NCBI GenBank assembly: GCA_947629895.1
Contig: CANRFP010000003.1
Coordinates: 1-38,285, forward strand
Reading direction: 5' to 3'
DNA length: 38,285 nt
Source: an uncultured Clostridia bacterium
GTDB lineage: Bacteria > Bacillota_A > Clostridia > Christensenellales > UBA1242
Position 1 is the stretch's first letter. Every line of letters begins with the position of its first letter. Shown one piece after another: positions 7,801 to 32,746 of this stretch. Made by a program: the position numbers and the translations under genes. A model generated the notes under the pieces. The model did not search any database and was not told the origin of the DNA. It saw nothing but the letters and a program-made list of their open reading frames with translations.

Positions 7801-8433
7801 TTAGTTTTGATTTGCTTGATTGTAAAAATCAAACGCTTTCATTATTTCTTCCAAATCGTCAGTTGGGTTTAGGGCTTCTTCAAAACTGAAACCGCTTTCA
7901 CTGACAGGATAGTCTTTTAATGTTTTGTTTGTTGGAATGCGAACCTCTTTTGGAGTTTGAGGCGTTTTTTTATAGTCTTGCATTTTTGTTAGAAGTAAAC
8001 GCATGCTGTCGTTATCAGAATAAATTGGGCGGGTGATGTTTGACATTTTATCATAGTTTTCTTTGAAACTTTGAACAATTCTTGTGAACTCTGTCATGAT
8101 GTCCTCAAAGTTTTGGTCGCGCCTTAGTTGTGGAAAACGAGTGTTGAGTTCCCTCAGCAAAATTTCAACTTTGTCCATGATAAGTTTGTTGAAATTTTTT
8201 GAGCCCTCTTCTTGAAACTTTTTTGCTTTTTCAATCACGTTTAGAGCGTTCAAAATATTTTTCTCTTTGTTCTCAATTTCAACCCTTTCATTCTTAACAT
8301 CCAAAAGCCTTTTTTCGCTGTCCAGAACTTTCAGTTTTTCTTCCATCAGTTTTGCTTCATAGGAAGTTTTCATCCTTTGAATAAAACTGTCAACTTCAAC
8401 TTTGTTATATCCGTTTGGCTCTTCTGAAAACAT
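7801..8433 (-). CDS. DivIVA-domain coiled-coil protein
   Basis: About 210 residues. The N-terminus, FSEEPNGYNKVEVDSFIQRM, matches the membrane-binding N-terminal motif of DivIVA/GpsB proteins. It is followed by a long charged coiled coil (~25-110) and a less ordered C-terminus. DivIVA proteins bind curved membrane at septa and poles and recruit division or sporulation partners. The ATG at 8433 is preferred because a GGAG site lies 6 nt upstream; an ATG at 8439 abuts that site, though it would overlap the upstream stop as ATGA. It sits in a minus-strand cluster with lgt, a small membrane protein and the FakA-C-like gene. Confidence 0.75.
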   Translation of the reverse strand: MFSEEPNGYNKVEVDSFIQRMKTSYEAKLMEEKLKVLDSEKRLLDVKNERVEIENKEKNILNALNVIEKAKKFQEEGSKNFNKLIMDKVEILLRELNTRFPQLRRDQNFEDIMTEFTRIVQSFKENYDKMSNITRPIYSDNDSMRLLLTKMQDYKKTPQTPKEVRIPTNKTLKDYPVSESGFSFEEALNPTDDLEEIMKAFDFYNQANQN

Positions 8434-8435
8434 AT

Positions 8436-8933
8436 TCATCTCCGTTTAAAGTGTAGGAACATTTCCAATATTAATAATACCAAAAAAGGAACAACAAAAG
8501 CAATAAAAATTGGGGTAGAAATAAAATTTTTTGTTAGAAGAAGGCTGTAAAGGCTGACGAAAAATATCGAAAAAGCAAGAATGAGGTGCAAGGCTTGTTT
8601 GCAAAAGATGTAAGTGACAACCGAGGCAAGAATAAAAGCAAGGCAGATAAAAAAGCCGGCATAGGAAATTGTGTTTGTGTATATGAAAATAAATCCAACT
8701 GTGCCAATGCCCGTTAGGAGGCTGCCAAAATATAGGCTGCTGTCAAGGCCAAACAAAAAGCCTTTTATAAGTTCAAACACTCCCAAGAAAAGACAAAATC
8801 CAAAGAACCACAAAAGTGGATTTTTAAGGACAAAAATACAAACAAAAATAAAAGCAAAAAACGCCCACGAAAACAGGAGGGCGCTTGACCGCAAAATAAG
8901 ACTTTTTTTAACCCCCAAAACTCTTCCATTCAT
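8436..8933 (-). CDS. Small polytopic membrane protein, unknown function
   Basis: A 165-residue protein made almost wholly of hydrophobic segments: five to six membrane helices at about 12-35, 40-60, 65-85, 90-110, 115-130 and 135-160, ending in a basic HFKRR tail. I do not recognise a family. The stop overlaps the upstream ATG of the DivIVA-like gene, implying coupled expression. No clear Shine-Dalgarno site precedes the ATG; a weak promoter-like pair (TTGGCA at 8971-8966, TAATAA at 8946-8941) lies close to it, so this may be another leaderless start, but the spacing is poor (19 nt). Confidence 0.65.
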   Translation of the reverse strand: MNGRVLGVKKSLILRSSALLFSWAFFAFIFVCIFVLKNPLLWFFGFCLFLGVFELIKGFLFGLDSSLYFGSLLTGIGTVGFIFIYTNTISYAGFFICLAFILASVVTYIFCKQALHLILAFSIFFVSLYSLLLTKNFISTPIFIAFVVPFLVLLILEMFLHFKRR

Positions 8934-9013: not shown

Positions 9014-9838
9014 TTATAAGTCTTTTTTGATGATTTTTATAATTTTATCTGTTACATCTTCTTTTTGGTGCTGTTTCCACCAGCAGTAAGCCAAATAGGC
9101 AACGCCACAAATTATGAACACAATTGAAAGCACTTGTGACACTCTTAGCGCACCCAAATATAGGCTGTCAGTTCGCAGGCCCTCAATCCATGCTCTGCCA
9201 ATGCCATAGAAAATTAGATAGAAGGCAAACAGTATGCCATTGTTTTTGAAGTCTGCTCTGTAAAGCATGGCGATGAGAATCCAAAACGAGACAAAGTTCC
9301 AAAGGCTTTCATAAAAGAAGGTTGCCAAATGCCAACTGCTTGTTGCATCAATATAAACCGCGAATGGAAACCACTGCATGCTTGGGTTTGTGACTTCATA
9401 GCCATAGGCCTCTTGATTGAAGAAGTTTCCCCAGCGGCCAAGTGATTGCGAAATTATGAGAGCAGGGGCAATAACATCGGCAAGAGCGAGAAGATTTTTT
9501 TTGTGAATTAGGCAATACAAAATCACGCCAAGTGCACCGCCAATAAGCCCGCCATAAAATCCAAGCCCGCCTTCCCAAATTTTGAATATGTCCACAAAGT
9601 TTTTGTAATTTTCAAGTTTAAACAAAACATAATAAATTCGCGCGCCAATTATCGCCAGCGGAATAACATAGCAGGCAAGGGTGAGAATGTCCTCTTTTTT
9701 TAAGCCTCTTTTTTTGGCGAACACCATTGCAAGCACAACGCCCAATAAATAAGAAAGGGCACTTGTTATGCCGTAAAAATAGATTTTGTGTCCAAAAAGC
9801 ATAAAACCATTTGGAATTGAGAGCAAACTGTCAGTCAT
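9014..9838 (-). CDS. lgt: Prolipoprotein diacylglyceryl transferase Lgt
   Basis: A 274-residue membrane enzyme that attaches diacylglycerol from phosphatidylglycerol to the lipobox cysteine of prolipoproteins. The Lgt signature GRWGNFFNQEAYG is intact, as are the early YGITSALSYLLG helix and the GLGFYGGLIGG segment with its conserved Tyr-Gly-Gly. About seven membrane helices are visible. The ATG at 9838 is chosen because GAGG lies 5 nt upstream; the GTG at 9844 would abut that site. A strong promoter precedes it. Confidence 0.96.
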   Translation of the reverse strand: MTDSLLSIPNGFMLFGHKIYFYGITSALSYLLGVVLAMVFAKKRGLKKEDILTLACYVIPLAIIGARIYYVLFKLENYKNFVDIFKIWEGGLGFYGGLIGGALGVILYCLIHKKNLLALADVIAPALIISQSLGRWGNFFNQEAYGYEVTNPSMQWFPFAVYIDATSSWHLATFFYESLWNFVSFWILIAMLYRADFKNNGILFAFYLIFYGIGRAWIEGLRTDSLYLGALRVSQVLSIVFIICGVAYLAYCWWKQHQKEDVTDKIIKIIKKDL

Positions 9839-9861
9839 ACACACCTCAATATTATATGCCT

Positions 9862-9913: not shown

Positions 9914-9942
9914 AAAAAAGACGCTTAAAGCGGCGTCTTTTA
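9914..9942 (-). terminator. Intrinsic terminator after the Rho-like gene
   Basis: AAAAGACGC and GCGTCTTTT form a stem at about 9916-9941 with a short loop. Read on the minus strand a T-run follows. It overlaps the last codons of the Rho-like gene. Confidence 0.8.
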
Positions 9943-11118
9943 CAAATCAATTTTTTGAGAAACTTTGTAGATTGTTGATATGTATGTTTGGTCAAACATA
10001 TCGCTGTCATCAAGAGTTGTGAACAGAGTTGTGTGTTTGTGCATTTTGCCAGCTTTTGCCAAGCAAACAATTTTTTTGATAAGTTCAACAGCCATTTCTG
10101 TGTGCCCCATCAAAGCCTTTGTGTTGTTTTTAAAAGCAAAATCTATTCCGTTTGCCAAAGTTGTGACATCTTGCACAAAAATTGCAACATTTTTGCCTTG
10201 TTGTTGAAGGCGGGTGACATGGTCTATGAATGTTTTAACAACTTCATAAGTTTCAAAAGGTTTGTTGTCATATTTAATCAAAAATGCATTGTTGAAGCCA
10301 AGTGATTGAAGGTCAATAAAATCTTCATACATAACATTTGGAATGCAAGCGAGGGTGATTATGCCTTCTTTTTTCATTTTTGACAGCAAATTTTCAATTT
10401 TTTCAATGTTTTTTGTGAATTTTTCTTGTTTTAGGATATATCTTCCGCCAAGCACTATGTTATATCCGGCAAGTTTTGTTGTTGGAACGTCAAGGGCATA
10501 TTCATTGTTTGTTTCAACATATTTTTCTGCATCTTGATAGTTGATTTTTTTAATTTCGTCAAGCACATATTCTTTTTCGGAATTCATCAGCACTGCAATT
10601 CCACTCACATAGTCATTTGGAACAATTCGAGCATCCAATTCTTTTTGAATTAAAATGTGTTTGCCATTGTCTTGACTCACCAAATACAAACTGCTGTCAG
10701 AATTTTCTCTTACAATTCCGCGAACTTCCATTGGCTGCAAATGCTTTTCAACAATCGATTTTTCAGCTTGTTTAAACGCAACCGCTTTTGGTTTTGTGGA
10801 CGTTGCGCCTTGTTGATTTGTTTTTAATGTGTAGTCCCTGCCTGTTATTTGTGAAAGTTCTGCCAAAATACCTTCAATATTGCTGAGTTCTTTGTAAGGG
10901 CGGCCTTGCCTCATTGGAATTGGCTTCAACTCTTCGCCGGAAATTATTTTGTCCATAACAATTGTTATGTGGTCATTTCTCTTTAATGTGGTTGGTGAAG
11001 CATCGCCAAAAACTCTTGCCAAAGCACGCAGTTCATAAATTCCTAAACTTTCAACCAAAGATAAGCATGCTTGTTCGGTTTTTGTGAGGTTCTTGTATTC
11101 ATAGTTTGGTTTCGTCAT
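9940..11118 (-). CDS. Rho-like protein lacking the ATPase P-loop (degenerate Rho paralogue)
   Basis: A 392-residue cytoplasmic protein laid out like transcription terminator Rho (E. coli Rho is 419). Residues ~24-60 resemble the Rho N-terminal helical domain. Residues ~130-195 resemble the RNA-binding cold-shock fold (EVRGIVREN, then DARIVPNDYVSGIAVL). Residues ~210-392 follow the RecA-like core: GKNVAIFVQDVTTLANGID (308-326) aligns with Rho GKDVIILLDSITRLARAYN. The next segments, from KALMGHTE to TTLFTTL and the final KIDL, follow the Rho order. The Walker A is gone: the aligned stretch reads IVLGGRYILKQEKF. The Walker B Asp aligns with Gln, and the R-loop tail is absent. It is therefore unlikely to hydrolyse ATP. 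The ATG has an AAGGAGA site 6 nt upstream. Function unknown; possibly a regulator or antagonist of true Rho or another RNA-binding factor. Confidence 0.7.
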   Translation of the reverse strand: MTKPNYEYKNLTKTEQACLSLVESLGIYELRALARVFGDASPTTLKRNDHITIVMDKIISGEELKPIPMRQGRPYKELSNIEGILAELSQITGRDYTLKTNQQGATSTKPKAVAFKQAEKSIVEKHLQPMEVRGIVRENSDSSLYLVSQDNGKHILIQKELDARIVPNDYVSGIAVLMNSEKEYVLDEIKKINYQDAEKYVETNNEYALDVPTTKLAGYNIVLGGRYILKQEKFTKNIEKIENLLSKMKKEGIITLACIPNVMYEDFIDLQSLGFNNAFLIKYDNKPFETYEVVKTFIDHVTRLQQQGKNVAIFVQDVTTLANGIDFAFKNNTKALMGHTEMAVELIKKIVCLAKAGKMHKHTTLFTTLDDSDMFDQTYISTIYKVSQKIDL

Positions 11119-11149
11119 AAAATTCTCCTTAGTAAACTTAATCGAAATT

Positions 11150-11179
11150 AGTATAACATAAACAATCGTTAAATATCAA
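11150..11179 (-). promoter_or_regulatory. Sigma-A promoter of the Rho-like gene
   Basis: On the minus strand, TTGATA (11179-11174), an 18-nt spacer and TATACT (11155-11150), giving a leader of about 25 nt. It points away from the rnpB promoter. Confidence 0.6.
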
Positions 11180-11284: not shown

Positions 11285-11627
11285 GTCAGTTGAACAGATG
11301 GTCGCTGCGTGTCTATGGTGGGCACGGAGAGGAAAGTCCGAGCATCAAAAGAACAGAGTGCCAGTTAACGGCTGGTGAAGGTGACTTCAAGGACAGTGCA
11401 ACAGAAATAGACTGCCATTGAAAAATGGTGATGGTGGAAAGGTAGGGTAAGAGCCTACCGAGCGATTGGCAACAACCGCTGCTCTGTAAACCCCACTCGA
11501 TGCAAGGTTAAGTTTGGAAACATGTGTGTTCTTTCACTTCCAACAAAAGCACCGCTTGAACTTGTTGGCAACAGCAAGGCTGGATAGATGACCATCCAAT
11601 ACAGAACTCGGCTTATGGTCAACTGAC
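11285..11627 (+). ncRNA. rnpB: RNase P RNA
   Basis: The catalytic RNA that trims the 5' leader of precursor tRNAs. Hallmarks are GAGGAAAGTCCGAGC near 11329 and ACAGAACTCGGCTTATGGTC near 11601. The 5' end GTCAGTTGA pairs with TCAACTGAC at 11619-11627, closing the terminal helix. Further helices such as GGTAGGGTAAGAGCCTACC near 11442 fit the class. Length about 343 nt. Its own promoter and terminator flank it. Confidence 0.95.
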
Positions 11628-11628
11628 A

Positions 11629-11650
11629 GCACCTTTTCAGGTGTTTTTTT
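11629..11650 (+). terminator. Intrinsic terminator of rnpB
   Basis: CACCT and AGGTG form a short stem with a TTTC loop, followed by seven T residues (11644-11650). The following 11651-11850 stretch is very AT-rich with scattered TTGACA boxes and no gene. Confidence 0.8.
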
Positions 11651-32582: not shown

Positions 32583-32589
32583 AACGGGG

Positions 32590-32712
32590 TATAAGAAATC
32601 TTCCAAAGACCGCAAGTGCGAAAGCGTAAACACTTCTTGTGTGCTTGCCGAGGAAAAGAACAGTTGATTGAATTTTTTCTCTGTGCCTTTTCCGTGTGCA
32701 GAGATTTTTTAT
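32590..32712 (+). promoter_or_regulatory. Ribosomal protein L10 leader (autoregulatory RNA)
   Basis: The untranslated region before rplJ carries the L10-leader core: AAAGACCGCAAGTGCG near 32604 and GTGCTTGCCGAGGAA near 32641, in which GCAAG pairs with CTTGC. L10(L12) complex binds this RNA to repress its own operon. A hairpin TCTCTG/CAGAGA (32678-32704) followed by six T residues is an attenuator-like terminator. Confidence 0.85.
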
Positions 32713-32746
32713 ATAAACGCAAAATCTAACAAAAGGAGGTATAGAC

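Follow-up and report, generated by a model that had tools for sequence, protein, structure and literature searches.

The window analysed here is a stretch of 38,285 nucleotides from an uncultured Clostridia bacterium (assembly GCA_947629895.1, contig CANRFP010000003.1, positions 1 to 38,285), and it carries on its reverse strand a gene for a 392-residue protein that retains the body of Rho without the residues of the Rho motor. We designate the gene product as motorless Rho. Rho itself is a hexameric RNA motor, for which motor and motor-free routes of termination are both under discussion (PMC11718236). In Bacillus subtilis, loss of rho is reported to alter antisense transcription and the timing of sporulation (PMC5540618). 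The gene, its parts, the signals around it and its downstream neighbor are as follows.

9940..11118, reverse strand: coding sequence of motorless Rho, 392 residues, an open reading frame with a Rho fold by model and structure comparison.
10933..11061, reverse strand: Rho_N helical bundle, residues 20-62 (LGIYELRALAR..G..SPTT.KR), the best-conserved part together with GRPxK.
10879..10911, reverse strand: GRPYK motif, residues 70-80, defined by conservation among the genus rows.
10531..10737, reverse strand: OB/cold-shock-like domain, residues 128-196, with Rho_RNA_bind matched in 8 of 67 genus members and by fold comparison.
9949..10461, reverse strand: RecA-like core lacking the ATPase motifs, residues 220-390, which stops at the position of Escherichia coli Rho residue 345.
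10399..10443, reverse strand: former P-loop segment, residues 226-240, without GKT/S, placed by alignment.
10162..10197, reverse strand: former Walker B strand GKNVAIFVQDVT, residues 308-319, placed by alignment and profile match.
11150..11179, reverse strand: promoter-like site TTGATA-18-TATACT, a consensus match only.
11125..11130, reverse strand: ribosome-binding site AAGGAG, the same in the 97% relative L009.
9916..9941, reverse strand: intrinsic-terminator-like hairpin at the stop codon, found by scan.
9014..9844, reverse strand: lgt (prolipoprotein diacylglyceryl transferase), the downstream neighbor in the window and in 86 of the 90 genus genomes examined.

The initial annotation credited the gene with its own promoter, ribosome site and terminator. 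Sequences resembling all three elements frame the gene, with the scans scoring only modestly above shuffled sequences.

The AlphaFold2 model of the protein (pLDDT 86.9) has the Rho fold, and all 50 PDB matches listed for it are Rho. Homology to Rho and the Rho fold over the OB and RecA parts were found by both profile and structure comparison, which bears out the Rho order of domains first read from the full-length protein. The sequence by itself falls below every family cut-off searched, and TIGR00767 is absent from its NCBIfam matches at E 10. Pfam Rho_N is matched in 32 of 67 genus members, the window protein itself being unmatched at E 0.01, and there are invariant columns in this region across the genus. 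Because the structural aligner VIA-align barely covered residues 1-105 of the model, the assignment of the Rho_N fold rests on the Pfam and profile matches together with the helices of the model. Residues G72, R73, P74 and K76 of the GRPYK motif, which we regard as AT-hook-like, are invariant in 67 genus rows. The primary RNA-binding aromatics F62 and F64 are mostly substituted or gapped in the genus, in a region where the alignment is weak. A viral relative was considered and rejected, as a viral fold search gave four matches at E <= 0.001 with a TMq of only 0.18-0.25.

The motor residues were compared in an alignment whose numbering is that of E. coli Rho, with the functional roles of the residues taken from PMC11718236. 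The window's genus, its family (f1) and the other taxonomic groups are given as codes. The alignment holds 49 canonical rows, 90 genus rows (drawn from 90 of the 95 matching genomes), 51 rows of other f1 genera and 14 degenerate Rhos of other families; the fragments L006 and L008, the loci L150-L155 (repeats of other loci) and exact duplicates were left out. The canonical rows keep K181, G183, K184, T185, E211, R212, D265, R353 and R366 in 49/49, partly by construction because the rows were sorted after their motifs had been seen. Among the 90 distinct genus rows, the pattern GK[ST] is found in none, E211 and D265 are likewise kept in none, K184 is kept in 4 and E214 in 86, and R353 and the arginine finger R366 are gapped in all. 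The model of the window protein ends at E. coli residue 345, so that about 74 C-terminal residues, including the arginine finger, are missing. The observation of the initial annotation is thereby confirmed, and the losses that it described of GKT from the P-loop and of the Walker B Asp hold across the genus.

The loss is graded in the other f1 genera, where E211 is kept in 5, D265 in 20 and K184 in 6 of the 51 rows. Four of these rows show the GK[ST] pattern; L137 was discounted as a pattern match that is not a P-loop, and the three counted as true (L102, L105 and L106, all from one genus) keep GKT or GKS and have a Lys in place of the catalytic Glu. They perhaps bind ATP without hydrolyzing it. 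Orthologs with an intact Walker A had been named beforehand as the observation that would speak for a sequencing or lineage-specific error. Loss of the P-loop holds throughout the genus and fails only in these three sequences, and the remaining intact Walker A motifs belong to canonical Rhos outside the family. As judged from the alignment, the relatives with an intact Walker A mark an evolutionary series, not sequencing error.

A relative of motorless Rho is present in 95 of 101 genus genomes, and among the matches listed, two have an internal stop. The Rho cut-off was passed by none of the 147 sampled family genomes and none of the 13 genus genomes searched. Weaker family matches (129/147) were not used as a count because they include other P-loop ATPases (model positions 144-211, frames of about 300 residues). 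Of the wider groups, 77 of 121 genomes drawn from the order and 104 of 127 drawn from the class pass the cut-off; outside the order the figure is 102 of 120, and one more of the 120 has a Rho cut by a contig end. By the family profile, the remaining 17 class genomes have no Rho-like protein: they gave no match, or matches from model position 207 on and one at 100-182, in frames of 438-650 residues, which we take for other ATPases. Degenerate Rhos also occur within the order in families f4, f9, f14, f25 and f27; their P-loops are degraded to varying extents, for example PPKTDPT, PPDSGKR, PPQTGKA and PGKYEVN. In L196 and L203 (both f27), the degenerate rho is directly followed by a frame that we assume to be secA-like. 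Neither a canonical nor a degenerate Rho was found in G251 and G273 of family f12, although a canonical one exists in G291, also of f12. A protein 59% identical to that of the window is labeled Candidatus Caccovivens, and among named records an uncultured Clostridia metagenome-assembled genome comes nearest.

The position of the gene in related genera bears on the origin of motorless Rho. Neighbors were counted by distinct genomes, and each cluster was named from a single representative. Some genomes of other f1 genera have the gene behind spoIIR, sleB and ypeB on the same strand: among 46 genomes examined, ypeB is found in 21, spoIIR in 18 and sleB in 15, and among 39 long loci all three are present in 13 and at least one in 19. 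The same genes precede rho in two of six order loci outside f1, namely G018, where rho is canonical, and G021, where its P-loop is degraded. Because part of the related genera hold it at the neighborhood of canonical rho, the gene is best read as the rho ortholog. Very probably, as far as sequence and synteny indicate, motorless Rho is the rho that a clade of Clostridia of family rank and with small genomes inherited vertically, and it has become a pseudo-ATPase. In the window's own genus, spoIIR, sleB and ypeB are absent beside the gene. The idea that the genus lost sporulation along with the rho neighborhood proved wrong, as spoIIR is present elsewhere in the genome in 11 of 12 genus genomes.

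The motor appears to have been lost several times. On an RpoB tree of 28 genomes (midpoint root; the partial gene of G291 and the fragment of G142 left out), the kept or lost state of the P-loop requires five changes in the order, and five to six across bootstraps; branches with good support impose at least four of the five. On the assumption that an intact motor is never regained, there are six losses on the tree (f1, f27, G021, G264, G352 and f4). Several losses may lie hidden within f1, since some members of one of its genera keep P-loops.

The gene is under purifying selection. The ratio of nonsynonymous to synonymous substitution rates (dN/dS) is 0.035-0.165 in 11 of 12 close pairs, the twelfth not being computable; several dS values exceed 1, which makes these estimates rough. 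The dead RecA part alone, with 0.05-0.22 in seven of eight pairs and one undefined, is under purifying selection as well. The claim that this is not a decaying gene is therefore upheld, and a sequencing error or one-off decay was rejected on the same low dN/dS and the presence of the gene in 95 of 101 genus genomes.

The constraint within the protein is inverted in f1. Mean pairwise identities, calculated without rows covering less than 60% of the columns, are 0.75 for RecA, 0.47 for OB, 0.34 for Rho_N and 0.14 for GRPxK in canonical Rho. The corresponding order in the genus is GRPxK 0.65, Rho_N 0.55, RecA 0.29 and OB 0.27, and in the other f1 genera Rho_N 0.42, GRPxK 0.42, OB 0.20 and RecA 0.18. 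The Rho_N bundle and GRPxK are now the best-conserved parts. Among canonical rows, 19 of 49 carry the GRPxK motif, as do 43 of 51 from the other f1 genera and 90 of 90 from the genus.

That the protein descends from Rho and has lost the motor is practically certain. It keeps the Rho_N bundle, GRPxK, the OB domain and the RecA scaffold, and it has lost the P-loop, the catalytic Glu, the Walker B Asp, the arginine finger and the C-terminal subdomain. ATP-driven translocation is very unlikely because the residues on which known Rho/RecA-type motors depend (P-loop, catalytic Glu, Walker B Asp and arginine finger) are absent. Motorless Rho would neither hydrolyze ATP nor translocate, and would act by binding. 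The N-terminal module of Rho_N and GRPxK, the latter a putative DNA-binding motif, may have nucleic acid or the transcription complex as its docking site, a step that we consider an even call. The OB and RecA parts would serve as a structural platform, perhaps oligomerizing. If motorless Rho influences transcription, it would do so passively or allosterically, without a motor; that such an effect exists is a tentative suggestion, weaker than that of docking. In the allosteric model of Rho, as set out in PMC11718236, the N-terminal domains engage the elongation complex and RNA polymerase is inactivated without the motor. Of 29 genomes examined, 26 have a NusG that scores above the cut-off for it. 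One genome rated 100% complete (G130) retains no more of the protein than Rho_N, GRP and OB, which also speaks for the N-terminal reading. We therefore favor a passive or allosteric factor because the N-terminal module is the best kept, the motor residues are gone, an allosteric model of Rho exists and NusG is retained. On balance, the best explanation, and somewhat the likelier side of the question, is that motorless Rho acts by binding to nucleic acid or to the transcription complex.

Several observations weigh against this explanation. In the genus, few of the RNP1 aromatics at the OB site survive. Six genus genomes have no match; the genus profile was matched in none of them, and only G011 matches the family profile, through a 139-residue Rho_N protein. 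Because G105 and G010 are 98% and 94% complete, these two may manage without the gene or hold a very diverged form of it. In 20 of the 39 long f1 loci none of spoIIR, sleB and ypeB is present, and they were not seen beside rho in four of the six order loci outside f1 (G014, G015, G016 and G020). Constraint is not inverted in the 14 degenerate Rhos from other families of the order (OB 0.29, Rho_N 0.27, RecA 0.25, GRPxK 0.21), and only one of the 14 has GRPxK. Finally, the view that only the N terminus matters is too strong because the RecA part is also under purifying selection.

The same selection bears on the closest alternative, in which motorless Rho is a simple binder. The concentration of conservation in Rho_N and GRPxK and the low GC content of the loci (0.33) are consistent with it, but the OB and RecA parts, which a simple binder would not need, are kept under purifying selection in nearly all orthologs seen. 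We consider this explanation improbable, if the best of the alternatives.

Slightly less probable still is motorless termination or silencing by the allosteric route, in which the N-terminal domains would grip the elongation complex and inactivate RNA polymerase without translocation. It would fit the conservation of the N-terminal module, the retention of NusG and the lack of enrichment of intrinsic terminators, which by a crude count lie at 48 of 280 gene 3' ends in the genus vs 39 of 116 in Rho-keeping loci. However, the other f1 genera have terminators at 69 of 168 ends, so that the terminator scan does not point one way; the survey also relied on crude gene calls and on syntenic and duplicate loci, with GC content differing between the groups. 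In addition, PMC11718236 presents the motor (tethered-tracking) model alongside the allosteric one, and the part lost here (E. coli residues 346-419) may matter for complex formation. The most far-reaching form of this reading, a natural motor-free Rho that captures RNA polymerase allosterically to terminate or silence transcription, with evolution having isolated the ATP-independent half of the Rho mechanism in an order with repeated motor loss, is equally unlikely.

A gene in decay, in which Rho became dispensable and the remnant is drifting, is improbable to a much greater degree. The fast divergence between genera (the RecA identity of 0.18 in other f1 genera), the repeated loss of the motor in the order, the few genomes without the gene and one truncated copy would speak for decay. 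This copy, in G130 (L200; rated 100% complete, 4% contaminated), ends after the OB domain and thus consists of Rho_N, GRP and OB in about 205 residues; no RecA part was seen in the three frames read after the stop. Nevertheless, the retention of the gene across the genus with two internal stops among the matches listed, and the low dN/dS, argue against drift.

RNA binding without translocation, and antitermination by motorless Rho, are possible readings of the sequence, but a role beside a canonical Rho of the same cell, as its regulator or antiterminator, which was the first proposal, is the least credible of all: dead paralogs that poison oligomers are a known theme, yet the search for a canonical rho in relatives returned no Rho over the cut-off in the genomes sampled from genus and family, and the dead gene occupies a rho neighborhood in part of the related genera.

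Comparison with known systems places motorless Rho nearest to Rho (TIGR00767; PDB 1pv4, 3ice and 7oqh), with which it shares the domain order, the OB and RecA folds, the Rho_N bundle and, in part of the related genera, the gene neighborhood. Unlike Rho, it lacks the P-loop, E211, D265, R353, R366 and the C-terminal residues, falls below the family cut-off and shows its strongest conservation at the N terminus. NF041509 (paralog_Rho2, 'Rho, short form') matches weakly at residues 282-385 (E = 0.033), but the score of 13.5 bits is far from the cut-off of 628. Because no second Rho was found in relatives, motorless Rho does not look like a paralog. Plant plastid RHON1 also has a Rho_N domain without the Rho motor, and differs in being a nuclear-encoded plant protein of another architecture. 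RHON1 reportedly binds both mRNA and single-strand DNA and terminates the transcription of rbcL (PMC6085346). The inhibitors Rof and Psu differ from motorless Rho in binding a working Rho, and their folds are not known to be related to it. Both act on Rho-dependent termination (PMC11018626, PMC11718236). No report of a motorless Rho family was found in searches of the open-licence PMC literature. Motorless Rho is a Rho by descent and, for the present, not by function. Its carriers are a large group of gut Clostridia that kept the rho gene and lost its ATP-burning parts. A rho gene can evidently become a pseudoenzyme instead of vanishing, whereas outside the order the sampled class genomes have either a full Rho or no Rho-like protein. 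A clade that keeps the Rho body under selection with the engine discarded is natural material for separating the motor from the non-motor functions of Rho.

Other features were noted in the window. An RNase P class A RNA gene (rnpB) lies at 11286-11630 on the forward strand, upstream of and divergent from motorless rho. The divergence was rejected as a conserved arrangement, since only 3 of 85 genus loci have an rnpB motif in this position. After lgt, two small overlapping open reading frames without a Pfam match, at 7801-8439 and 8436-8933 on the reverse strand, belong to recurrent neighbor families of the gene, namely cluster 3, seen in 57 genomes, and cluster 1, seen in 78, with the window included in both counts. 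A ribosomal protein L10 leader is located at 32585-32718 on the forward strand (57.8 bits).
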